Assembly: GCA_040218145.1 (NCBI GenBank)
Contig: JAVJQK010000047.1
Span: forward strand, 1 to 64,000
Direction of reading: 5' to 3'
Source: Sandaracinaceae bacterium
GTDB taxonomy: Bacteria; Myxococcota_A; Polyangia; Polyangiales; Sandaracinaceae
DNA: 64,000 nt
Positions 24,261-42,117 of the stretch are shown in pieces. Position 1 is the stretch's first letter. Each line of letters starts with the position of its first letter. Both the position numbers and the translations under genes were made by a program. The notes under the pieces were generated by a model. That model did not search any database. It had not been told where the DNA came from and saw nothing but the letters and a program-made list of their open reading frames with translations.

Positions 24261-24994
24261 ACGTCGTCTTCCTCGGAGCCACCAAGGGCATGGGCCGCGC
24301 GCTCGCCCGCCGCATGGCGGAGCGCGGAGACCGCCTCTTCTTGCTCGGTCGTCGCGAGGACGAGCTCGACAAGACCGCGGCCGACCTCGGCGTGCGCGGC
24401 GGCGGCGCGGCGCCGGGTCACGCCCCGTGTGATCTCGAGCGCCCGGAGACCTTCGCGCCCGCGCTCGACGCCGCGCTCGAGGCGCTCGGCTCGTTCGACG
24501 CGGTCGTCGTCACCGCCGGCCTCTTCGCGACGCAGGAGGCGCTCGAGTCCGATCGCGAGCTGACCCGCCGGCTCCTCACCGTCGACTTCGCCCACACGGT
24601 GCTCTTCTGCGAGGAGGCGAAGGACCGCCTGATCGCGGGTGGCGGCGGCAAGCTCTGCGTCTTCAGCTCCGTCGCGGGCGAGCGCGGCCGCAAGCCCGTC
24701 GTCCTCTACGGCGCGAGCAAGGCGGGCTTGACGGCCTACCTCGAGGGGCTCGACCACAAGCACCGCGCCGACGGCCTCGAGGTGGTCACCGTCAAGCCCG
24801 GCTTCGTGAAGACCGGCATGACCTCCGAGCTCGATCCGCCCCCCTTCGCGGGAGAGCCCGAGGACGTCGCGGTGCGCGTGCTCGCCGCGCTCGATCGCGG
24901 CGCGCCGGTGGTCTACGCGCCGATCGCGTGGGGCCCGATCATGGCCGTGATCCGCTCGCTGCCGCGCTTCGTGATGCGCCGCGTGGGCTTCTGA
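24257..24994 (+). CDS. dprE2: DprE2-like short-chain dehydrogenase/reductase
   Basis: The 245-aa SDR has its cofactor motif at the N-terminus (FLGATKGMGRALARRMAERG) and the catalytic Ser, Tyr and Lys in FSSVAGERG and YGASKAGLTAYLEGL. Its coupling to the DprE1-like gene, with GGAGA before the GTG start, suggests it is the partner that reduces the 2-keto intermediate, completing ribose-to-arabinose epimerisation of a polyprenyl-linked sugar. On its own it could be any SDR; the assignment rests on context. The last 56 bp overlap the convergent esterase-like gene. Confidence 0.75.
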   Translation: MNVVFLGATKGMGRALARRMAERGDRLFLLGRREDELDKTAADLGVRGGGAAPGHAPCDLERPETFAPALDAALEALGSFDAVVVTAGLFATQEALESDRELTRRLLTVDFAHTVLFCEEAKDRLIAGGGGKLCVFSSVAGERGRKPVVLYGASKAGLTAYLEGLDHKHRADGLEVVTVKPGFVKTGMTSELDPPPFAGEPEDVAVRVLAALDRGAPVVYAPIAWGPIMAVIRSLPRFVMRRVGF

Positions 24995-25991
24995 GCGCGG
25001 CCTCGAGGAACGCCACCGTCGTGCAGGTGGCGGGGCGCGTCCGCTCGCCACGCCAGAACAGCCGGAAGCCGTGCGGGGCCCCGTCGACCACGACGAGCTG
25101 CGCGTGCACGCCGGCCGCCTCGAGCGCGTCCCGCATGCGCTCGGACTGATCGAGCGGCACGACGGTGTCGCGCGTGCCGTGCAGCAGCAGGTGCGGCGGG
25201 TCGGCGGCGTCGACGTGAACGACGGGGGAGGCGAGGGCGGCCCGCTCGGGGACGCGCGCGCGCGGCGCGCCGAGGAACCGGGTCAGGATCGCGTCCGCGG
25301 CGCGGGAGTAGCTGGCCTCGGGTCGCAGGTCCGCGGGCGCGTAGTAGGCCACCACCGCCGTCACGGCCGGGGAGGTCTCGATGTCCGGGCACGCGTGGTC
25401 GAGCCCCTCGGCGTCCGACGCGGTGCCGAGCATCTCGGCCAGGTATCCGCCGGCCGAGAACCCCACCGCGGCGCCCCGCTCCGGGTCCAGCCCCAGGCTC
25501 CCCGCCCGCCGACGGAGGTAGCGCACCGCGCAGCGCACGTCCGCGACCTGCACGGGCCAGCGGTTCGGGCGGCCCGCGTCCAGGAGCCGGTAGTCGACGC
25601 TCGCGGCCGCGAACCCCAGCGCGGCGAGCATCTCCATCTCGCGGCGGAGGTGACTCCGCTCGCCCGCGCTCCAGCCGCCGCCGTGGATCAGCAACACCCA
25701 GGGATGAGGGCCCTCCGACGCGGGGAGCGCCAGGTCCAGGTGACGCCCCGGCGCGTACCGCAGCCCCTCCCGCAGCGCGCCCACCCGGGGCGTGGGGAGG
25801 TCGCACGCCTCGACCCGCCCGGGCCAGGTCGGCTCGATCTCCGGCTCCTGCTCGTGATCGGAGGGCGGGTCCATCGCGGGCGCGGACTCGACGGCCGGAT
25901 CCGGGACCGGGCCGGGCGCGGCGCGGACGACCTCGGGGGGATCCGCCGTCCCACATCCCAGCAGGCACAGAGCCGTCAGCCACAGGCGCAC
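24939..25991 (-). CDS. Alpha/beta-hydrolase (esterase-like) lipoprotein
   Basis: The 350-aa protein starts at GTG 25991 with a lipoprotein signal (LWLTALCLLGC), followed by a Pro/Glu/Asp-rich linker and an alpha/beta-hydrolase fold. The oxyanion motif is HGGGWSAG, the nucleophile is the Ser in GFSAGGY, the acid is the Asp in GTRDTVVPLDQ and the His is in GAPHGF. It resembles carbohydrate-esterase/BD-FAE-type hydrolases anchored in the envelope. The substrate is unknown. It is divergent from the Ser/Thr kinase gene. Confidence 0.85.
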   Translation of the reverse strand: MRLWLTALCLLGCGTADPPEVVRAAPGPVPDPAVESAPAMDPPSDHEQEPEIEPTWPGRVEACDLPTPRVGALREGLRYAPGRHLDLALPASEGPHPWVLLIHGGGWSAGERSHLRREMEMLAALGFAAASVDYRLLDAGRPNRWPVQVADVRCAVRYLRRRAGSLGLDPERGAAVGFSAGGYLAEMLGTASDAEGLDHACPDIETSPAVTAVVAYYAPADLRPEASYSRAADAILTRFLGAPRARVPERAALASPVVHVDAADPPHLLLHGTRDTVVPLDQSERMRDALEAAGVHAQLVVVDGAPHGFRLFWRGERTRPATCTTVAFLEAALRSPRGASRSAAASGSRP

Positions 25992-26162
25992 TCCGTCACC
26001 CTGACGGTGCGGTCGCGCGGCGCAACCCGTGACCCTACGCACGTGCCGGTTGTCGAGGAATCTCGCCAGCGCTAGGTTCGCGCGCTGACCCACCGCCCAG
26101 ACGGGGGTAGGATTCCGTGGGAAGGAATCCGCGCGGGCGTCTCGACGTCCCACGGGAGCACC

Positions 26163-27488
26163 TTGGGGAGCAGTACCGCAGCCGAAGGCGCTCGCATCGG
26201 TTCGACGATCGCGGGCAAGTATCGACTCCACCGCAAGATCGGGGCGGGGTCGATTGGAGCGGTGTATGCGGCCGTCCACCAGTTCACCGGCAAGCACGTC
26301 GCGCTCAAGCTGATCGACGGCACCCTGCTCGAGGAGCACGAGGGCTTCGCGGCCCGCTTTCTCCGTGAGGCGCGCGCCGCGGCCGACATCGGCCACCCCG
26401 TGATCTGTGACGTCCTCGACGCTGGACAGGAGCCCGACGGAACGCTCTACCTCGCGCTCGAGCTGCTCGAGGGGCGCACCTTCGAGGACGCGATCGAGGC
26501 CGACGACCTGCGGCTCGACGAGGTCGTCGACGTGGGGATCGAGCTCCTGGACGGGCTGGCCGCGGCCCACGACCGCGGCATCGTGCACCGCGACATCAAG
26601 CCCGAGAACGTGTTCCTGACGTGGAACGAGCAGGGCGAGATGCACGTCAAGTTGCTCGACTTCGGGGTGGCCAAGAACACCAAGGGCGGCCCCGAGCTCT
26701 ACACGACGCAGCAGGGCGCCATCCTCGGCACGCCGTGGTACATGGCGCCGGAGCAGGCGGCGGGAGACCCGGTGGACGCGCGGGCCGACATCTGGAGCGT
26801 GGGCGCGGTCCTCTTTCACGCCCTGACCGGCGACCCGCCGCACGACGCGCCGAACTACAACCGGCTGATCGGCAAGCTGCTCAACGAAGACCCGCCCAAG
26901 CTCCGCAGCGTGCGCCGTGAGCTCCCGGAGTGGCTCTGCACGGCCGTCGACGGCGCGCTCCAGCGGGACCCGGACGTGCGCTGGCAGTCGGCGCGCACGA
27001 TGGCGGAGACGCTACGGCTGAAGGGGCGTGGCGAGATCGAGCTCGACTGGGAGCTGCACGAGGACGCCACGGTCCGGACGAACTCGCCGTACGACTCCGG
27101 CGAGTCGGCCCGCCCCCCGGCGCTCGCGATGATCTCGGTCCCGGACGAGCCGACGGTGGACGTCTCGGGCATGCAGGCGGACAGCGTCGAGGTCGACCTC
27201 GAGCAGCTCGAGCCCGAGACGCTCGAAGAGTCGTCGCCGTTCGACGCGTCGATCTTCGACTCGGCGGGCGGCGCGACCATCAAGAGCGACGTGCCGCCAC
27301 CGCACGTGCTGGACGCCATCCTCGCCGCCCGCGGCAAGCCCACCAAGAGCCGGCTCTGGACGGGCGTGCTCCTCGGGGTGGTGATCACCCTGCTCGCCGC
27401 CGCCGCGGCGGGGTGGTTCGTCTACGAGCGCTACCTGCTGCCGGAGGCCGCGCCCCCCGTCGAGGCGCCCCCCGCGCCCGTGGGCTGA
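26163..27488 (+). CDS. Eukaryote-like Ser/Thr protein kinase with C-terminal membrane anchor
   Basis: The 441-aa protein has a complete PknB-type kinase domain at about 19-285: the glycine loop IGAGSIGAVYAA, Lys49 (VALKLI), the catalytic loop HRDIKPEN with Asp144, the DFG Asp166 (DFGVAK) and the APE motif (MAPEQ). An acidic linker follows and a transmembrane segment lies near the C-terminus (GVLLGVVITLLAAAAAGWFV), leaving a short Pro-rich tail outside. All catalytic residues are present. The start is a TTG at 26163 with GGGAG a few bases upstream; no better in-frame start is close. Substrates are unknown. Its 3' end overlaps the convergent MscS gene by 58 bp. Confidence 0.92.
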   Translation: MGSSTAAEGARIGSTIAGKYRLHRKIGAGSIGAVYAAVHQFTGKHVALKLIDGTLLEEHEGFAARFLREARAAADIGHPVICDVLDAGQEPDGTLYLALELLEGRTFEDAIEADDLRLDEVVDVGIELLDGLAAAHDRGIVHRDIKPENVFLTWNEQGEMHVKLLDFGVAKNTKGGPELYTTQQGAILGTPWYMAPEQAAGDPVDARADIWSVGAVLFHALTGDPPHDAPNYNRLIGKLLNEDPPKLRSVRRELPEWLCTAVDGALQRDPDVRWQSARTMAETLRLKGRGEIELDWELHEDATVRTNSPYDSGESARPPALAMISVPDEPTVDVSGMQADSVEVDLEQLEPETLEESSPFDASIFDSAGGATIKSDVPPPHVLDAILAARGKPTKSRLWTGVLLGVVITLLAAAAAGWFVYERYLLPEAAPPVEAPPAPVG

Positions 27489-28279
27489 GCCTTCGACGAC
27501 CTGGACGCGCCCACCGCGCGGCGCACCGACGCCTCGACGTCGCGCACGTGATCCGGATCGAGCGCGAAGATCGTCACCTCGAAGCGGTCGGCGTCGAGCA
27601 CCGCGATCTCCGGCTCGCGCGCGATGGCTGACCAGTGGCACGCGAGCGCGCTCTCGCGGATGAGCCGCTTGGTCTCCGCCACGGGCGGCGCGGCGGGCAG
27701 CGTCAGCTCGAAGACGTGCAGCGTGCCCCGCTCCGACACCGGGGTGCGCAGCAGCTCCGCCCGCGCCACCCGGCTGTAGGGGATGATGGCCTCCTCGCCC
27801 CGCGCCGTCTCCACGACGAGGACGCGCTGCCCCATGCGCTCGACGCGCCCCTGCACGTCGCCGATGCGCACGTAGTCGCCCACGCGGCAGACGCGCCCCG
27901 CCTTGAGGAAGATGCCGCTCACCACGTCCCGGAGCGCGAACCACGACGCCGCGATGCTCACGCCGAGGATCACCGCGACCGCGATCGGGAAGTGCGTCGG
28001 GTACTTGTCGAAGAAGAACGCCGCCGCGAGGAGCATGTAGAAGACGGCCGAGGCGCCGCTCAGGAGCGGGTGCGCGCGCCGGAGCTGCTCGCGTCGGGTG
28101 GGCGCCAGGGGGACGACGTCGATGGCGAAGCGCGTCGCGCGGAGCAGCGCCCAGACGAGGAGGGCGCCGAAGAGGATCATCGCGAGGTCACCGAAGGACG
28201 TGTAGACGTCGCCCATGACCGACGCGTCGAGGCCCTTCGGCTCGCCGCTCACGTCGCTGACCGCGCCCGACACCCTCAC
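27431..28279 (-). CDS. MscS-family mechanosensitive channel
   Basis: The 282-aa protein has about three hydrophobic segments in its first half (for example GDLAMILFGALLVWALL, and AVAVILGVSIAASWFALRDVVSG as the pore-lining helix). The MscS beta domain follows (CRVGDYVRIGDVQGRVERMG, RGEEAIIPYSRV), then the alpha/beta domain, and it ends in a Gly/Ala/Ser tail. MscS channels release solutes on hypo-osmotic shock. The GTG at 28279 has GAGGTG upstream. It lies 43 bp downstream of the SLC12-ATPase fusion gene on the same strand, so the two are probably co-transcribed, which suggests a shared role in ion or osmotic balance. Confidence 0.9.
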   Translation of the reverse strand: MRVSGAVSDVSGEPKGLDASVMGDVYTSFGDLAMILFGALLVWALLRATRFAIDVVPLAPTRREQLRRAHPLLSGASAVFYMLLAAAFFFDKYPTHFPIAVAVILGVSIAASWFALRDVVSGIFLKAGRVCRVGDYVRIGDVQGRVERMGQRVLVVETARGEEAIIPYSRVARAELLRTPVSERGTLHVFELTLPAAPPVAETKRLIRESALACHWSAIAREPEIAVLDADRFEVTIFALDPDHVRDVEASVRRAVGASRSSKAQPTGAGGASTGGAASGSR

Positions 28280-28290
28280 GGCGACACCTC

Positions 28291-28335
28291 TTTCGAGGCA
28301 ACCTGCTTCGAGGCAACCGGCTTCAAGGCAACACC
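28291..28335. repeat. Three tandem 15-bp repeats at a gene junction
   Basis: Units at 28291-28305, 28306-28320 and 28321-28335 share the core cttcgaggcaacc with two or three differences each. The third unit includes the last codons and the stop of the SLC12-ATPase fusion gene; the others fill the spacer up to the ribosome binding site of the MscS gene. It may be an mRNA element or simple slippage. Confidence 0.85.
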
Positions 28336-31300
28336 TTCCGCTCCCGGAGCCGCTCGATGAGCGCGTGCGTCACGAACCGGTTCACGCTCGCGACGCCCTG
28401 ACGGTTCTCCTTGATCAGGCCCATGCGTCGGAGCGCGTCGAGCTGCCGGTCGAGCTCTCGCCCCTCGAGGTCGGCGACCCGCATCAGCCGCTCGCGCGTC
28501 AGGCGCTTGTGGAGGAGCAGCTGGACGAGCACCGCCGTCCAGTCGGCGCGGAGTCGGTCGAGCACCTCCCAGTCGCGACGGCTCGGCGCGCGGATCTTGA
28601 TGGCGCGGTCGTCGCCCTCCTCGACGTGCGTGATCCACGAGGTGAGCGCGGTGCCCACGAGGCCCCGGCTGTAGGTGAAGTGCTGCGAGAACAGGCGGGC
28701 GAGGCGCCACTCCGACAGCTCGCTCTCGGCCGTACCGTCCAGCGAGAAGGTGATGCCGGTCGAGCCGTGGCGCAGCGTCACGATGTCCTTGAGCGCGTGC
28801 GCGGGGAGGGGGCCGCACTCGACGACCGCCAGCGCGTGGTCCGCGAGCGGGCGGAAGCGATTGACGAGGTCGAAGGGCAAGCTGCCCATCTCGATGAGGA
28901 AGAGCACGCGGCCCGCGTGCGCCTCGATGACCTCGATGAGCGCGTCGATCACCGCGAGCCCGTGCTCGCTCCGCTCCCACCAGAGCTCGAGATCTTCGAT
29001 GACCAGGACGCTCCGCTCGGGGATCGTCTGCACGATGTCGTTGACGCTGCCGCTCACCCCGGTGACCTCGGAGAGCTTGCGCCGGAACGCCTCGACGTCG
29101 GCCGCGCCGTCCTCGGGCGGCGGCACCCAGTGGATCTCGCGACCCGAGAGCGCCCGGCTGGTCAGGCGTCGACAGAGCGCGGTCTTTCCGCTGTCCGGCT
29201 CGCCCGTCACGACGAGGATGCCGCGGCCGCCCCGGGCGTGCTGCGCGATGCCCCGGCGCGCGCGCGACAGCTCCTGCTCGCGCTCGACCCAGAAGGTCTC
29301 GTTGAACGTGTTCTTCCCGAAGAAGAGCTGGCGGTAGTAGAAGGGCAAGTCCTCCAGCACCTCGGCGCTCGGCGTGTTGGCCTCGACGAAGCGCGAGACG
29401 CGCTCCACCAGGGCGCCCGCGGTCTCTCCCTCACGGAGGCGCCGCGCCATCAGCACGCCGGCGCTCCGCCCGTAGATGGCCTGGACGAGGCCCTCGCGCG
29501 CGCGCTCCAGGCCACGCAGCGCCAGCGACTGCGCGCCCGACACCGCGCGCTGCCCCTGGTGGCGCCGGATGTGCTGGCCCAGCTGGCGCGCCGACTCGGT
29601 CAGCTCGTAGACGTCGGTCCCACGGAGCACCGCGGAGAGCTTCGCCTCGAGCAGCGCGTCGACGTTCGGCACGATCGCCTCGAGCGGCGCGATCGCGCCC
29701 TCCACCCGCTCGAGCCCGTTGACCACCACCGGGCGCATGTGGGCGTGGAAGCCGCCCGCGGACTCCTTCGGGTCGTACTCGTTCTGGTGGAAGCCGATCA
29801 GGCGGACCACGTCCTCGGCCACGCCGACCGACTGCTGCTCCTGGGCGGGCACCTCCGCGAGGAGCTGGCTGAGCGGGCCGACCAGCTGCGCGTCGAGCAG
29901 GAACTGAGCGAGCCGCTTCAGCGGCAGCTCCACCATCTCGACCTCGTCCGCGTCCCCCTCGGCGAGGCGCTGGATCGACGCGTCGCTCAGGGTCGAGACG
30001 GACTCCGCGAGCTCCCCCGCCGAGCGCTGCCCCTCGCGCACCAGCGCGTCGACCGCCTGCACGGGATCGAAGCGGTGGGAGAGATCGACGTTGAGCTTCA
30101 CCGGCTCATCGCGCTCCTCCTCGAGGAAGGCGCCGAGCGCCTTCTTCAGATCGTGCGTGCCGTGCAGGACGCCGTTCTTCACCTCGAGCGCGATGGCCTC
30201 GCGCGTGCGCTGCACGATGGTCGCGATGCGGTGCTGGAAGCCGCTGACCTCGAGCCCGATCTGCGCGCGCTCGAAGAGCGCCTTCTGGTGCTCGTAGAAG
30301 ACGCCCGCCTCGTCGAGCAGGCCCGTCTTCAGCGCCTCGCTCTGCCGGCTCAGCTTGCGCTGCGACTTGAGCAGCTGCGGCAGGTCCACGCGGTCGAGGT
30401 CGTCGGCGTAGCCCTGGCTGAGCACGCGCGCCTCCTCGGCGAGGCGGGCCGCGTGCTCCTCGATCCGATTCTCGTGCAATCGCATCAGCTCTTGCAGGCG
30501 CTCCTTCGCGGTCTCGCGCTCCGACTCCACGAAGCTCGCGCGCGCCTCGTCGCTGCCGCTGCTGCCCTGGATGAGCGTCAGGCTCGTGCGCGAGGCGTGG
30601 AAGACCTTCAGGAGCTGGACGGCGAGGTGCCAGCTGTCGGTGACGAAGGCGCGCACCGTGTCGTCGACCGTCTCCACCGCGGCGTGCTCGACGTACCAGC
30701 GCTGGAGCGGCGCCGTCTCCACCTCCAGCTTCACCACGCCGCCCCGGGCGCGCTCGCGCCGGGCGCGCTTGACCTTGGCGAGCTCGCGGGAGTCGCTGGG
30801 GCTCGCGGCGAAGTCGGCGACGGGCCGCTCGAGCGTGACCATCCCGTGGGGCTCGACGAGGGTCGCGTCGCCGAGGAGCGCGCGCACGCGGCCCTCGAGG
30901 ATGTCGCGCTGATCCGGGAGATCCTGCCGGACGTAGTCATCGATCAGCTTGCGGCACTCGATCAGGAACGCGCTCTGGACGCGGTTGATGTGCCGCCGCC
31001 GCTTCACGGGGTTCGTGATGGCCAGCCCCTCGGCGAGCACCCCGAAGTGACGATCGACGAGGGTCTCGGTCCGGGCGAGCAGCTCGAGGTTCCGCGCGCC
31101 GAGCCGCGCCACGCTCTTCTGATAGAAGTCGCGCAGCGTGCCCTCGAGCCGCTGCGCGAACGCGCGCGCCTCGTCGGCGAGCGGCTCGAACGCGGGAGGG
31201 CGCAGCGAGGACAGCTCGATGCTGTCGGTGACGTCGGCCGCCTCCTCGGCCCCTTCGGCCGCCTCCTCCACCGGCGCCCGGACCACGCGGCCGACCGCCT

Positions 31301-33428
31301 CGAACTGCGAGCTGGGCGAGACGAAGAGCACGGTGGGCACCGACGTGCGGACCGAGTCGAGCGCCTCCAGGTGCGGGGCGGTCGGAGGCGGCGGCAGCTC
31401 CACGACCGCGAGGGTGGCGTCCGAGGAGCGGTCGCAGACGTGACGCTCGAGCGGCTTCGGGTCGACGGTGTCCAGGATCACCTCCACGTCGGCCGTGACG
31501 CGCGCCGCCTCGAGGAGCCGCCGCGTCGCGTTGCGCAGGCCGTCGCTCAGCGAGCTGTCGCGGCTGACCGTGATGAAGCGGACGGCCGCGCGACGGTGCT
31601 CCGGGCTCGAGGTGATGAAGCGGATGAGCGAGATCGACAGGGCGGGCGTGCTGTCGGCGCGCCACCACACGTCGATCCGCGGCGGCGTCCCCGGGGGCGG
31701 CTCGTGCGTCGCGTCGGTGAAGAGCAGCGTGTTGAGGTCCAGCTCCCGCAGCTGATCGATGAGACCCGCGAGCCGCTCGCCGTCCTCCGCGAAGCCGTCC
31801 CAGTCGATAAGCGCCGTGTTCGGCTCGATGCCGGAGTACCCGTGGTGCGCGGCGAAGCGCTCCATCGTCGCGTAGGGGTCCTCGGTCTCGACGTCGCGGG
31901 TGAACACGCCGACCACGGGCCCCTCGTCGAACAGGAGCGGATCGCTCTGCGCCGGCCGCTTGCCCCGCGCGCGCAGCCGGATGTCGGTGAGCATCCCGTT
32001 GCCCGTGATGAGCGAGCCGGCGGTGCGCCGCAGCGCCTCCCGGGGCGCGCCGTCGTCGGGCCGGAACATGAGGATGTTCGGGCGCCAGTTGCGCTGCTGG
32101 CGCTGCGCGAGCGCGAGCCGATGCAGGCCCGCCCGCACCAGGGTCGACCAGATGCCCTCCCAGGCGTCGCCCGACTCGAGCTGCAGCTGCCGGCGCTGGA
32201 GATAGACGAAGAGCGCGCTCATCACGACCAGCGCCCCGGCCATCGCCGCGAGGTCCATCTGGATCATCAGCAGCAAGCACACGACGGCGCCGACCACGCT
32301 GATCGTCTTCGGGATCCGGAAGTCGGGCCGGAAGTCGGGGCTCACCCAGCTCTCGATCGCCGCCGCGAGGTTCAGGAACCCGTAGGTGGCCATGAAGACC
32401 ATCGACACGACGCGCGCGATCACGTCGAGCTCGGCGATGAGGATGCCGGCCCAGCCGATCGCGAAGGCGAGCAGGAGCGCGTTGCGCGGCTCGTTGGTCT
32501 TGCCGTGCCCCTTGGCGAAGAAGCGCGGCGTGATGCCGTCGCCGCTGATGGTCTGCAGGATGCGAGGCGCGCCGAGGATGCTGCCCAGCGCCGACGAGAG
32601 GGTCGCGCCCCAGATGCCGGCCGTGACGAGCGGCGCCCAGAGCGACATGTCCTCGAGGATGCGCGGGTTGTTCACCAGCTCTTCGGCCGGCACACGGAAG
32701 GCGAGGAACGCGGCGAGGGCGAGGTAGACCGCGAGGCCGACGAAGATCGCGGCCATCGTCCCCGTGGGGATCGACTCCTTCGGATCGCGGAGATCGCCCG
32801 ACATGTTGACGCCGGCCGTGAAGCCCGTCACGGCGGGGAAGAAGATCCCGAACAGCACCGCGAACGACTCGCCCCCCTCGGGGGTGCCGATCAGCGGCGC
32901 GGAGTCCTCCGGGGCGGACCCGAAGAAGATCGAGATCAGCGAGAGCACGATCGCGCCGAGGATCAGGTACTGGGTCTTGATCGCCAGCGACGTGCTGATG
33001 AAGGTGATCACCGTCAGCAACACGACGGTCACCGTGCCGCAGATGCGGATCGTGTTCGGGGTGACGTCCACCCCGATCACCCCGAGGAAGCTCTCGGAGA
33101 AGCCGATGATGTAGAGGCTGATGCTGAACGACAGCCCGAGGAAGAGCGCGAGCCCCAGGGTCCCGCCGATCGGCAGCCCGAGGCTCCGCGAGACGATGTA
33201 GTAGGGGCCGCCCGCGCCGACGCTCTTGTCGGTGGCGATCGACGAGATGCTCAGCCCCGTGCACACGCTCACGATGTGCGCGAGCACGATGATCGCGAAG
33301 GCGAGCGCGAGCCCCGAGTTCCCCACCACCCACGGGAGGCGGAGGTACATGATCACGCCGAGGATCGTCAGGATCGACGGCGTGAAGACGCCGCCGAAGG
33401 TCCCGAACTTGCTGTCGCTCTTCGCCAC
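28323..33428 (-). CDS. SLC12-type cation-chloride cotransporter fused to a helical region and a P-loop ATPase, 1,701 aa
   Basis: Residues 1-410 form a 12-helix APC-superfamily transporter of the SLC12 type, opening with GTFGGVFTPSILTILGVIMY, then GAGGPYYIVSRSLG, VTGFTAGVNMSGDL and SALGSILGAPRILQ. Residues about 440-740 match the cytoplasmic C-terminal domain of that family (NWRPNILMFRP). A long, mostly helical, coiled-coil-like region of about 600 residues follows. Near 1361 the motif LPFYYRQLFFGKNTFNETFW leads into an AAA-like ATPase with Walker A GEPDSGKT (1409-1416), Walker B SVLVIEDLE (about 1473-1481) and a C-terminal winged-helix-like part ending at 1701. Known SLC12 proteins are secondary carriers without an ATPase, so regulation rather than pumping is the likelier ATPase role. 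The start is GTG at 33428. The reading frame is continuous with no sign of frameshift. Confidence 0.9.
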   Translation of the reverse strand: MAKSDSKFGTFGGVFTPSILTILGVIMYLRLPWVVGNSGLALAFAIIVLAHIVSVCTGLSISSIATDKSVGAGGPYYIVSRSLGLPIGGTLGLALFLGLSFSISLYIIGFSESFLGVIGVDVTPNTIRICGTVTVVLLTVITFISTSLAIKTQYLILGAIVLSLISIFFGSAPEDSAPLIGTPEGGESFAVLFGIFFPAVTGFTAGVNMSGDLRDPKESIPTGTMAAIFVGLAVYLALAAFLAFRVPAEELVNNPRILEDMSLWAPLVTAGIWGATLSSALGSILGAPRILQTISGDGITPRFFAKGHGKTNEPRNALLLAFAIGWAGILIAELDVIARVVSMVFMATYGFLNLAAAIESWVSPDFRPDFRIPKTISVVGAVVCLLLMIQMDLAAMAGALVVMSALFVYLQRRQLQLESGDAWEGIWSTLVRAGLHRLALAQRQQRNWRPNILMFRPDDGAPREALRRTAGSLITGNGMLTDIRLRARGKRPAQSDPLLFDEGPVVGVFTRDVETEDPYATMERFAAHHGYSGIEPNTALIDWDGFAEDGERLAGLIDQLRELDLNTLLFTDATHEPPPGTPPRIDVWWRADSTPALSISLIRFITSSPEHRRAAVRFITVSRDSSLSDGLRNATRRLLEAARVTADVEVILDTVDPKPLERHVCDRSSDATLAVVELPPPPTAPHLEALDSVRTSVPTVLFVSPSSQFEAVGRVVRAPVEEAAEGAEEAADVTDSIELSSLRPPAFEPLADEARAFAQRLEGTLRDFYQKSVARLGARNLELLARTETLVDRHFGVLAEGLAITNPVKRRRHINRVQSAFLIECRKLIDDYVRQDLPDQRDILEGRVRALLGDATLVEPHGMVTLERPVADFAASPSDSRELAKVKRARRERARGGVVKLEVETAPLQRWYVEHAAVETVDDTVRAFVTDSWHLAVQLLKVFHASRTSLTLIQGSSGSDEARASFVESERETAKERLQELMRLHENRIEEHAARLAEEARVLSQGYADDLDRVDLPQLLKSQRKLSRQSEALKTGLLDEAGVFYEHQKALFERAQIGLEVSGFQHRIATIVQRTREAIALEVKNGVLHGTHDLKKALGAFLEEERDEPVKLNVDLSHRFDPVQAVDALVREGQRSAGELAESVSTLSDASIQRLAEGDADEVEMVELPLKRLAQFLLDAQLVGPLSQLLAEVPAQEQQSVGVAEDVVRLIGFHQNEYDPKESAGGFHAHMRPVVVNGLERVEGAIAPLEAIVPNVDALLEAKLSAVLRGTDVYELTESARQLGQHIRRHQGQRAVSGAQSLALRGLERAREGLVQAIYGRSAGVLMARRLREGETAGALVERVSRFVEANTPSAEVLEDLPFYYRQLFFGKNTFNETFWVEREQELSRARRGIAQHARGGRGILVVTGEPDSGKTALCRRLTSRALSGREIHWVPPPEDGAADVEAFRRKLSEVTGVSGSVNDIVQTIPERSVLVIEDLELWWERSEHGLAVIDALIEVIEAHAGRVLFLIEMGSLPFDLVNRFRPLADHALAVVECGPLPAHALKDIVTLRHGSTGITFSLDGTAESELSEWRLARLFSQHFTYSRGLVGTALTSWITHVEEGDDRAIKIRAPSRRDWEVLDRLRADWTAVLVQLLLHKRLTRERLMRVADLEGRELDRQLDALRRMGLIKENRQGVASVNRFVTHALIERLRERKVLP

Positions 33429-33545
33429 CCGGCGCGAGCATATCGCGTTCAGGTCGAGATGTGCTCCCGTCCTTCGAACGCGAAACGCGCCCGCCCCGGT
33501 CGGGACGAGCGCGCTCGCGTCTGGGGCCGATCAGCCCTCGGGCCC

Positions 33546-35273
33546 TCAGACTTCGGCGAAGTCCTCGAGGATGCCGCCGCGCGCCTCGCGGAGCTTGCGG
33601 AGCGCCTGCACCTGGAGCTGACGGATCCGCTCGCGGCTGAGCCCGAACTTGTCGCCCACATCCGTGAGGGTGTGCTCCTCCTCGCCGTCCATGCCGAAGC
33701 GCATCCGGAGGATCTCCTTCTCGCGATCGGTCAACGTCTCGAGCACCTCGCGCATCGTCGCCTCGAGCGAGTCGTCGACGAGCGGCTGCATCGGGGTGTC
33801 CTGGTCGGGGTCGACCACGAGGTCGCCGAGGGTGGACGAGCCATCCTCACCGACCGGGATGTCGAGGCTGACGGTGTCCCGCATCGCCTCGAGGAGCTCC
33901 TGCACGCGCCGCTCCGGCATCTGGAGCTTCTTGCCGATCTCCTTGGCCGTCGGCGCGCGCCCGAGCTTGGGCGACATCTCACCGATGGTGCGCATCACGC
34001 GGTGGAAGCGCTCGAGCGCGTTCACCGGGATGCGGATGGTGCGGCCCTGCTCCTGGGTCGCCCGGTTCATCGACTGCCGGATCCACCAGCCCGCGTACGT
34101 CGAGAGGCGGAAGCCCTTGTGGTAGTCGAACTTCTCGACCGCGCGCATCAGGCCCATGTTGCCCTCCTGGATGAGGTCCAGGAACGGGAGCCCACGGTTG
34201 CGGTACTGCTTGGCGATGCTGACGACGAGGCGGAGGTTGGCCTCGACCATCTCGCTCTTGGCGTGGTCGACGTCGGCGAGCGCGCGACGCAGCGAGCGCA
34301 CCGTCTCACGGACCACGGCCAGGGGCTGGCCGGCGTCCTCCTCGATGCGACGGACCACGCGACGCGCGTCACGGATGGCGCGCACCGCGGTGCTGTCCGC
34401 GCCGCGCTTGCGGAGCCGCTCGATCGCGGCCGGCGAGAGCTGCACCGCCTCGTCGAAGTCGATCTCGAGGCGACCGACCGCCCGACGGATGGTCCGCTCG
34501 GCGCGCTCGACCTGCCGGAGGTAGCCCTCGAGGCGGCTGGTGATGCGCTCGAGCCGCTTCTCGTGGAAGTCGATCGAGCAGAGGACCTGCGCCCGCTCCT
34601 CGACGAGGGCCGCACGCTTGCTCGCGCTGCGCGCGGTGCGCATGCGGTGCTCGATGTCGTTGACCTCACGAAGCTTCCGGAGGGTGTCCTGGAGCGCCTG
34701 GGCCTCCTCTTCGGTGCCCTTGCGGAGGTTCTCGGCGACGACCTCCCGCACGCTCATCTCGCCGTTCTCGAGGCGCTGCAGCATCTCGCTCAGCTCCGGC
34801 ATCCGGATGGACGTCCGCCAGAGGAGGTCGAGCACGACGGCGCGACCCTTCTCGATCTGCCGGGCGAGCTCGATCTCACCGTCGCGCGTCAGCAGCGCGA
34901 CGTCGCCGAGCTTGCCGAGGTAGCGCTCGATGCTGTCGAGCTGACCCTTGGACGAGCGGTAGCCGCGGCTCTGGCCGCGGGCCTTCTCCTTCTTGGAGCC
35001 GTCCGTCACCGACAGCCCGATGCCGAGCTCTTCGAGCTCGCGCAGCGCGCGCGGAACGGCACGACTCAGGTCCGGCTCCCCCGCCAAGGAGGCCGACACT
35101 TCGTCGTAGGTCAAGAAGCCACGGTTCCTGCCCTTGGTGAGGAGAGCCTCACCAAGTACGGACGCATGGACGGTTCGGTTGTACTGCTTCAAGGGATGCC
35201 TGCCTTCCTCCACGCCGCCCGCGTGACCGCGGCGACGGGACGAATGGTTGTTGGGTCGACGATGCTCCGACAT
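33546..35273 (-). CDS. RpoD-like sigma-70 factor (group 1 or 2)
   Basis: The 575-aa protein starts at ATG 35273 with AGGGGAAG just upstream. It has a region 1.1-like N-terminus ([12 protein letters not shown]), region 1.2, a ~200-residue charged non-conserved region, region 2 ([53 protein letters not shown]), region 3 and region 4 with its helix-turn-helix ([20 protein letters not shown]). It binds core RNA polymerase and recognises -35/-10 promoters. Region 2.4 differs somewhat from typical primary factors (QGRTIRIPV instead of QARTIRIPV), so it may be the housekeeping factor or a paralogue. It lies 117 bp upstream of the SLC12-ATPase gene on the same strand. Confidence 0.9.
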
Positions 35274-35791
35274 GTTCTTCCCCTCTGATCCTTGGGGCCG
35301 AAACCGAGGACGCACAGTGCTCAGGCGAAACACCCGCTCTGGGTGGACTACCTTTGGACGGACTGGACGTCTCCGCGTTCCAATGCGCGGCTCCGAGGGG
35401 GATGTAAGCTCCGCGCCGGCCAAGCCAAATCGGGGGCGAGCTGTCATCGTGCAGCTGCAGGTCACCCGCGCGGTACGCCTCGCATCCGTCTCTGCTCCAA
35501 CCCTGCGGCGCGAGGCCAGGGCTCTCCTGGGGGCGTGTCCGCTCTGGGGGACGGGCCGCGCTGAGAACCACCATTTTGGGACGTGAGGACGGAATCCTCG
35601 GCGTTTGTTCAGTGTCGATAACGTAAGAACGCAAACCGCGCCTGTAAACCCCTCGGCCCGAACGGGCCACGGAGGGAGTACGGACGAGCAGCCAGATCGT
35701 TTCACGCCCATGCCGTGGGATTCAGCCGACACCCCTCGTCAACCGGGGGGCGGCGCTCGCTGTTCCCGTGGTTTTCGCGCGCGTGAGTGTC
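35274..35791. other. Gene-free region upstream of the sigma factor gene
   Basis: About 520 bp without a convincing gene; base composition is more mixed than in the flanking genes and third-position GC bias is lost. It should hold the 5' leader and promoter of the sigma-factor gene on the - strand. The region around 35600-35650 is the least GC-rich part (gtgtcgataacgtaagaacg), but I cannot define -35/-10 boxes with confidence. Confidence 0.6.
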
Positions 35792-40588: not shown

Positions 40589-40629
40589 CAGAGGCCGCCC
40601 GGCAGGGGAGGGTGGCGGGGAGGGAAGGG

Positions 40630-42117
40630 ATGCTCAGAGGAATGTCCGTGCTGCTCGCGATCTGTGCGGTCGGTTGCGATGGCGACGTGGCGTCGGTCGA
40701 CGCTGGAGGTGGGGATGCCCGCGTGCGCGATGCGCGGGTGGATGATCTGTGCACCGCCGACCGGGAGTGCGACGACGGCCTCTATTGCAACGGGCGCGAG
40801 CGGTGCCTCCCGGGCTCGGACGCCGCCGACGCGCGGGGCTGCGTCAATCCAGGCGCCGACCCGTGCCTGGAGGGGCAGAGCTGCGATGAAGATCGGCTCC
40901 GATGCATCGCCGACTGTGGCGCCTCCCGGGATGCTGACGGGGATGGTTTCGAGAGCGTCGACTGCGGAGGCACGGACTGCGACGACGCCGACGCGACCGC
41001 CTTCCCTGGCGCCGCAGAGACGTGCGACATGGTCGACCAGGACTGCAACCCTGACACCTTCGGGGACGACGGTGACGCAGACGGTGACGGCTTCGTCAGC
41101 GTCATGTGCTGTAACCGGGGTGGCGATCTCGCGCTGCGCTGCGGCGACGACTGCGATGACATGCGGGCCGACGTCCATCCCGGCGTCACCGATGGCTGCG
41201 GAAACGGAGACGAGGATTGCGACACGCGGATCGACGAAGATCCGACGCTGACGATCTACCCCGACGTCGACGGTGACGGCTTCGGCGTGAGCGAAGGGGC
41301 GGCGATGGCGTGCACGGCGGCGGGAGGCTACGCGCTCAACGACCGAGACTGCGACGACGCGCGGGCGGATGTGCATCCGGGCGCCCGCGAGGTGTGCAAC
41401 GCGCGCGACGACGACTGCAACGCGATGGTCGACGACGCGGAGCTCGGCTGCGACTGCACCGACGGCGAGCGCAGGAGCTGCGGCCGCACCGACGTCGGCG
41501 ACTGCGCGCTCGGCGTCCAGACCTGCGTCGGCGGTCGCTGGGGTGCCTGCGACGGCGAGGTGCAGCCTCGGAACGAGGTCTGTGGTGGCGGCGACGAGGA
41601 CTGCGACGGGATGACCGACGAGGCAGACTCCCTCGGCGGATCCGTCTTCTACGCAGACACGGACGGTGACGGCTACGGCGACTTCTTCGCCCCGATCCGC
41701 GCTTGCTCCATGCCGGCGGGCACGGTCACGAATGCTTCTGATTGCAACGACAACGATTCACGGGTCAACCCCGCCCAGACGGGGTTCTTCACCGAGCCCG
41801 CGTGTCGGGACGGATCCGCGCCCATGGCGGGGCCGTGTCCGGGCGAGACCGGCTTCTCCTTCAGTTGCTGGGCTTGCAATGGCCGGCTGCCGGTCGACTC
41901 GGAGTACGACTACGACTGTGACGGCGGCGCGGAGACTCAGCCCTCGAGCGCGTTCTGGAACTGCGCGGGAGCTTGTCTCTCGCCGAGTCCCCCAGAGCCG
42001 GTAGCCGCGCACCCCGCGAGCATGTGCGGCCGGCTCGTGGAGTTTCGCCGTTGTATGTCCGATTCGTTCGGAGGGTGCTCGGCCGTTCGGGAGGAGGACC
42101 GACTACCGTGTCGCTGA
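40630..42117 (+). CDS. MopE-like Cys/Asp-rich lipoprotein
   Basis: The 495-aa protein starts at ATG 40630 after GGGAAGGG. The lipobox is LAICAVGC. The mature part is rich in Cys and Asp, with three or four repeats of the MopE-type putative metal-binding motif: D.DGDGF or D.DGDGY, then DCDDxxAxxxPGAxExC and a DxDCN element. These match the repeats of methanotroph MopE and of many myxobacterial surface proteins, where they are thought to bind calcium or copper. Many disulfides are expected. The C-terminal ~110 residues have a separate Cys pattern (GFSFSCWACNGRLP). It converges on the Cys-rich lipoprotein gene. Confidence 0.85.
   Translation: MLRGMSVLLAICAVGCDGDVASVDAGGGDARVRDARVDDLCTADRECDDGLYCNGRERCLPGSDAADARGCVNPGADPCLEGQSCDEDRLRCIADCGASRDADGDGFESVDCGGTDCDDADATAFPGAAETCDMVDQDCNPDTFGDDGDADGDGFVSVMCCNRGGDLALRCGDDCDDMRADVHPGVTDGCGNGDEDCDTRIDEDPTLTIYPDVDGDGFGVSEGAAMACTAAGGYALNDRDCDDARADVHPGAREVCNARDDDCNAMVDDAELGCDCTDGERRSCGRTDVGDCALGVQTCVGGRWGACDGEVQPRNEVCGGGDEDCDGMTDEADSLGGSVFYADTDGDGYGDFFAPIRACSMPAGTVTNASDCNDNDSRVNPAQTGFFTEPACRDGSAPMAGPCPGETGFSFSCWACNGRLPVDSEYDYDCDGGAETQPSSAFWNCAGACLSPSPPEPVAAHPASMCGRLVEFRRCMSDSFGGCSAVREEDRLPCR

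Follow-up and report, generated by a model that had tools for sequence, protein, structure and literature searches.

A gene coding for an SLC12-type transporter fused to a predicted ORC/STAND-like AAA+ ATPase and paired with an MscS-type channel gene in a Sandaracinaceae bacterium

Studies of secondary transporters and of mechanosensitive channels usually treat the two as separate systems that oppose each other. A membrane transporter with a covalently attached NTPase switch has a precedent in FeoB, which has an N-terminal G-protein and Fe2+ as its substrate and comes without an MscS partner; KefC is a member of the CPA2 family. In the KTN/RCK-regulated transporters (KefC, KtrAB, TrkH-TrkA), a cytoplasmic nucleotide-binding part controls a monovalent-cation transporter (PMC2920069). 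The SLC12 cation-chloride cotransporters (CCCs), including NKCC1, KCC and the prokaryotic CCC of Methanosarcina acetivorans, share a transmembrane (TM) domain and a cytoplasmic C-terminal domain. The motif ATLSS is a signature of CCCs with a Na+ site, bacterial ones among them (PMC11641049), and the C-terminal domain of KCC1 is reported to bind ATP/ADP (PMC8280820), so that SLC12 proteins under the control of nucleotides would not be without precedent. A P-loop ATPase followed by a C-terminal winged helix is found in ORC/Cdc6, TnsC and STAND proteins (Apaf-1, NLRs, paby2304), and MscS channels of about 280 residues combine three predicted TM segments with the PF00924 beta-domain.

We analysed positions 1 to 64,000 of contig JAVJQK010000047.1 (assembly GCA_040218145.1), hereafter the window, in which an initial annotation had described one uninterrupted frame of 1,701 residues joining an SLC12-like transporter, about 600 helical residues and an ATPase. 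The frame is there, on the minus strand, with a GTG start at 33428, and this start is backed by homologues opening with MAKDSKFGTFGG at the same point. The order of the three parts also stood, while their limits moved: the SLC12 part ends at residue 734 instead of 740, and the ATPase starts at 1345 instead of 1360. The features are as follows.

28323 to 33428, minus strand: fusion gene, 1,701 residues (SLC12 transporter, helical rods, AAA+ ATPase and winged helix, as predicted)
32109 to 33428, minus strand: residues 1-440, SLC12/CCC transmembrane domain (TIGR00930, NKCC1 alignment)
33111 to 33113, minus strand: Y106, equivalent of the K+-site residue Y383 of human NKCC1 (Y in 72 of 74 fusions)
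32826 to 32837, minus strand: P198-T201, K+ site (NKCC1 P496, T499)
32592 to 32606, minus strand: A275-S279 (ATLSS), Na+ site (NKCC1 A610, S613, S614)
31227 to 32108, minus strand: residues 441-734, SLC12 cytoplasmic C-terminal domain (KCC2 alignment through residue 651)
29397 to 31226, minus strand: residues 735-1344, two predicted rods of very long helices
28578 to 29396, minus strand: residues 1345-1617, predicted ORC/STAND-like AAA+ ATPase
29181 to 29204, minus strand: Walker A, GEPDSGKT, residues 1409-1416
28986 to 29009, minus strand: Walker B, VLVIEDLE, residues 1474-1481
28326 to 28577, minus strand: residues 1618-1701, predicted winged helix (AlphaFold2 secondary structure; the match to ORC extends to residue 967 of the model)
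27431 to 28279, minus strand: MscS-type channel gene of the same operon, 282 residues, three predicted TM segments

Whereas known SLC12 CCCs end after the C-terminal domain, the fusion adds about 970 residues with an AAA+ ATPase and has a linked MscS gene. It differs from the KTN/RCK systems in having a helical rod, an ATPase of predicted ORC/STAND type and an MscS partner, and no KTN domain was found: TrkA_N and TrkA_C were absent among the Pfam matches up to E 1. Unlike ORC/Cdc6, TnsC and the STAND proteins, the ATPase would be anchored in the membrane through an ion transporter, and no DNA or death-domain context was found.

An assembly error joining two genes had been named as one finding that would undo the annotation, and a comparison with other genomes showed that it did not apply. 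A genome of the same species has the identical gene in two pieces on separate contigs (identity 99.9-100%), and in 11 further genomes of the order there is a fusion that is about 38-66% identical. With these 12 other genomes, a chance frame or assembly artefact was ruled out and the fusion is real. Two loci elsewhere have in-frame stops: a single stop codon separates the SLC12 membrane part from the rest at L108:682-5898, all in one frame, and the L016 fusion has one in-frame TGA; a broken gene, a sequencing error and recoding are candidate explanations. On the opposite strand of the window, an open frame of 2,357 codons (28215-35288, plus strand) overlies the fusion; it is a shadow of the G+C-rich gene, with no evidence for a gene of its own. 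Upstream lies an RpoD-like sigma-70 gene (33546-35732, minus strand), a neighbourhood common only to the same-family loci L025 and L033 among the loci tested.

Pfam and NCBIfam searches recognised the N-terminal permease as SLC12-type. The TIGR00930 match (E 6e-107, residues 5-479) lies under the full-length curated cut-off of that model, the closest solved structures were those of human KCC and NKCC (E around 1e-76), and KCC2 aligned with residues 184-651 (E 7e-53). These matches bear out the earlier assignment to the SLC12-like transporters and indicate sequence homology to the SLC12/CCC family (TC 2.A.30) over both the TM and the C-terminal domain, the latter being kept in all fusions. We mapped the ion sites using the positions of human NKCC1 (PMC7889885). 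Of the 74 fusion sequences, a few of them duplicate records of one genome, 71-74 keep each residue of the Na+ site (A275, S278, S279), the K+ site (Y106, P198, T201), the Cl- sites (G24, V25, G202, Y349) and the outer gate (R30, E112). Among these, the equivalents of NKCC1 Y383, P496, T499, G301, V302, G500 and Y686 reached at least 72 of 74, and the Na+-site serines S278 and S279 72-73 of 74. Other residues stand at the equivalents of N298 (T in the fusion), W300, M303, I501 and L502, which are backbone-coordinating positions. The Na+-site serine positions are S/S in the fusion and G/A in KCC2, and a KCC-type transporter was rejected on these residues. Because the Na+, K+ and Cl- sites are intact and ATLSS is present, we infer Na+-coupled, NKCC-like transport chemistry; coupled electroneutral Cl- transport, a class trait of SLC12, is putative for the fusion.

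The helical stretch of about 600 residues between transporter and ATPase was recovered in confident AlphaFold2 models as residues 735-1344 (pLDDT 90.9 and pTM 0.82 for this region alone; pLDDT 88.7 for residues 735-1701). No known fold matched the rods convincingly (the best Foldseek E was 0.048, and the VIA Z values, 11.9 or lower, lie in the noise range of helical bundles), and the models neither show nor exclude kinship to dynamin, spectrin or BAR proteins. An internal duplication of the rods is only suggestive: hhalign gave a probability of 75, and shuffled controls reached similar values.

The Pfam/NCBIfam search placed an AAA domain at residues 1400-1530 (AAA_22, 29.5 bits against a curated cut-off of 27), and the Walker A and B motifs read earlier from the sequence are where the initial annotation had put them. 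The Walker A pattern G....GK[TS] occurs in 62 of 62 relatives, with G1409, G1414 and K1415 invariant; the Walker B acids D1479 and E1481 occur in 60 of 62, and R1553-H1554, conceivably an arginine finger, is invariant among the ATPase relatives aligned. Fold matches of the predicted structure included ORC/Cdc6, RuvB, Apaf-1, TnsC and NLR proteins, with a Foldseek match to Drosophila ORC (E 3.6e-7) and a superposition on 1w5t_C (Z 15.7, rmsd 5.4, 322 aligned residues). The predicted structure assigns this part to the AAA+ ATPases of ORC/STAND type, with a C-terminal winged helix.

The MscS reading frame begins 43 nt past the fusion stop, as had been reported, and matches PF00924 at 46.4 bits against a cut-off of 20.2. 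The beta-domain and about three TM segments assign it to the MscS family; it is a predicted channel, for which tension-gated conductance is putative. It differs from described MscS channels in its pairing with an ATPase and in two sequence traits. The canonical IPN motif is replaced by IPY in the protein of the window and in most MscS partners of SLC12-type fusions, and these partners carry extra conserved charges, [RK]D and [KR], after the pore helix.

We sought the same arrangement in other genomes. Searching 84,980 genome species with a profile built from the final 967 residues gave 80 loci, 64 of which have an SLC12 domain in the same frame (custom HMMs). By record titles, the fusions occur in Myxococcota, Bacteroidota (many Bacteroidales, also Rhodothermia and Saprospiraceae), Calditrichota, Neomarinimicrobiota, Gemmatimonadota, Chlorobiota, Delongbacteria and Kapabacteria. 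Nearly all sources are MAGs, one isolate being Paraliomyxa miuraensis (L054), and protein length is 1.6-1.8 kaa across phyla. An MscS gene lies directly downstream at all 12 loci of the order with downstream sequence and at 53 of the 60 SLC12 fusions with enough of it, so that the fusion with its adjacent MscS gene is present in many phyla; fusion stop and MscS start overlap or nearly touch in many loci (ATGA, TGATG). Since seven SLC12 fusions of Bacteroidales and Chlorobiota have no adjacent MscS gene (L060, L067, L072, L080, L083, L088, L109), the channel may in these cases lie elsewhere in the genome or be dispensable. Stand-alone SLC12 genes from the same order served as the control, and none of their seven loci had an MscS neighbour.

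The trees of the ATPases and of their MscS partners agree with each other (r 0.85; at most 0.15 in 1,000 permutations; r 0.84 within the SLC12-type), in part a matter of shared species history. Both trees split SLC12-type from other-type pairs, and seven seemingly misplaced members are read as truncated or SLC12-less relatives of the SLC12-type. Five Flavobacteriales loci (L073, L075, L087, L095, L104) lack SLC12 and code for an ATPase with the helical region, about 1,120 residues long where complete; they have no MscS neighbour where enough sequence follows.

Distant relatives of the ATPase were taken from the phylum of the window as the best-scoring loci, so that the fractions given here describe those loci and not a random sample. 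They are not fused to SLC12. Eight (L142, L143, L144, L146, L151, L153, L155, L167) have an N-terminal Na+/H+ exchanger (PF00999) resembling the CPA2 family that includes KefC, and others (L036, L156-L158) have a coiled segment and 5-6 predicted TM segments instead. An MscS gene stands next to 41 of 43 ATPase relatives without SLC12, directly downstream in 40 by HMM and in L167 by Pfam; at L146 it is one gene further on. The helical regions of exchanger-type and SLC12-type proteins align end to end over 564 columns (E 1.4e-19) with a score of 169, where reversed controls gave about 20 and block-shuffled ones 36-60, and on this alignment they are homologous. The genome of the window itself has only 14 MscS-family genes and three family ATPases, of SLC12, Na+/H+-exchanger and 5-TM type, with an MscS gene after each. 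The exchanger-type member (G000:C33:242000-258000; L167: 3313-7863, 7866-9329) joins a CPA2-type exchanger to the helical region and ATPase, and directly after it comes an MscS gene of at most 488 codons. In the 5-TM member (G000:C101; L036: 5771-9067), an N-terminal coil, five predicted TM segments and the ATPase are closely followed by MscS; no transporter family was recognised for its membrane segments. At L140, two ATPase-MscS pairs stand in tandem on one contig. Since ATPases without SLC12 have MscS neighbours and stand-alone SLC12 genes do not, MscS tracks the ATPase and not the transporter. The conserved core indicated by these sequences is thus ATPase plus MscS, rather than SLC12 plus ATPase, with the cation transporter exchangeable.

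These data are consistent with a two-gene module of ion and volume homeostasis in which an ATPase switch sets transporter and channel against each other, a reading to which we give about an even chance. The SLC12 domain would import Na+/K+/Cl- with NKCC-type chemistry, and the pair of rods would join it to the cytoplasmic ATPase. Beneath the membrane, the ATPase would bind ATP and shift its conformation, its ATP/ADP state, possibly tuned by turgor or ionic strength, serving as the switch. This switch would tie the co-encoded MscS-type channel to the transporter and keep uptake and release from being active at once. Relatives have a CPA2-type exchanger or a different membrane domain where the fusion has SLC12. 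With the ATPase-MscS pair constant and the transporter exchangeable, the channel would serve all types as output or sensor, and the transporter would be the arm that varies. In this scheme, the gene pairing, its co-inheritance and the exchange of transporters are observed, and the physical complex, the direction of control, the signal sensed and the transport stoichiometry are what we infer. The osmotic or ionic stress module suggested from the adjacent MscS gene is strongly supported by the MscS neighbours of fusions and relatives (53/60 and 41/43), and is broader than noted in that a Na+/H+ exchanger can replace the transporter. Of the two roles suggested for the ATPase, that of a nucleotide-gated regulator of ion transport is plausible. 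More tentatively, and with slightly less than an even chance, the family may form a widespread and so far undescribed class of membrane machine in which an ORC/STAND AAA+ switch with rods physically links an exchangeable secondary cation transporter, SLC12 or a CPA2-type exchanger, to a dedicated MscS channel, one nucleotide switch setting uptake and release, as a bacterial counterpart of cell-volume regulation by CCCs.

NKCC-type uptake and MscS release could also be regulated in parallel without contact. It is also conceivable, if unlikely, that the MscS-like protein senses tension and, by way of the ATPase, switches the transporter, the conductance of the MscS-like protein itself being secondary. 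The IPY motif and the charges after the pore helix in SLC12-type partners would fit such a role, as would the fact that all core types keep the MscS-like partner while the transporter varies, but the beta-domain and membrane segments of a channel are retained. Improbable in our view is a role in defence or cell death: on sensing a phage or damage, an ATPase of STAND type would open the MscS pore and so depolarise the cell, with the transporter serving as a membrane anchor. The predicted fold is near STAND proteins (Apaf-1, NLRs) and a channel is a typical effector; however, the ion-site residues are nearly invariant, which would not be expected of a mere anchor, the MscS gene is co-inherited over phyla, and the locus stays beside the rpoD-like sigma gene within the family. 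No PADLOC 2.0.0 model matched the fusion or its MscS protein at E 0.01, and a known defence system was rejected.

The covalent fusion and the intact Walker motifs could also point to an ATPase that drives or force-couples SLC12 transport. Such ATP-powered pumping seems more improbable still and the force coupling proposed initially found no support, because AAA+ proteins of ORC/STAND type are switches or assembly platforms and not transport motors. The same ATPase, moreover, serves unrelated carriers, and the intact SLC12 Na+ site means that a Na+ gradient can drive transport. Walker A is degenerate in several exchanger-type relatives, so hydrolysis is probably not needed in all, and a binding switch fits these better than a motor. 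Least probable of all, we consider, is that the transporter acts as a sensor for a membrane-tethered DNA-binding regulator made of the ATPase and winged helix. ORC/Cdc6 and TnsC, the closest folds, do bind DNA, and some relatives match MarR/TrmB HTH models, but the wing is slightly acidic, the exposed face of the predicted recognition helix is not conserved and, with a mean net charge of +0.8, not clearly basic, and the MscS partner would be left unexplained. We retain the two-gene homeostasis module as the preferred reading.

Every domain belongs to a known family; what appears new is how they are joined, in the fusion, in its versions with an exchanger and in their close gene pairing with MscS. 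We found no description of any of these in the open-licence PMC literature, and no NCBIfam, Pfam or PADLOC model covers the fusion system as a unit, in keeping with the earlier suggestion of an undescribed system. An AAA+/STAND switch, a secondary transporter and an MscS channel are not known to be linked in any other kind of system, although on a stricter view the system may be a variant of nucleotide-regulated cation transport. If the proposed module is correct, the conserved gene pair would show uptake and release to be coupled within one bacterial machine. Bacterial models for SLC12 regulation would be a further gain, human SLC12 proteins being drug targets that bind nucleotides without a known mechanism, and the constant ATPase-MscS core with its exchange of transporters makes MscS control besides tension directly testable.

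Elsewhere in the window, a 634-residue frame (24939-26843, minus strand) has a C-terminal BD-FAE-type esterase domain, and a 501-residue frame (40612-42117, plus strand) has MopE-type metal-binding repeats.
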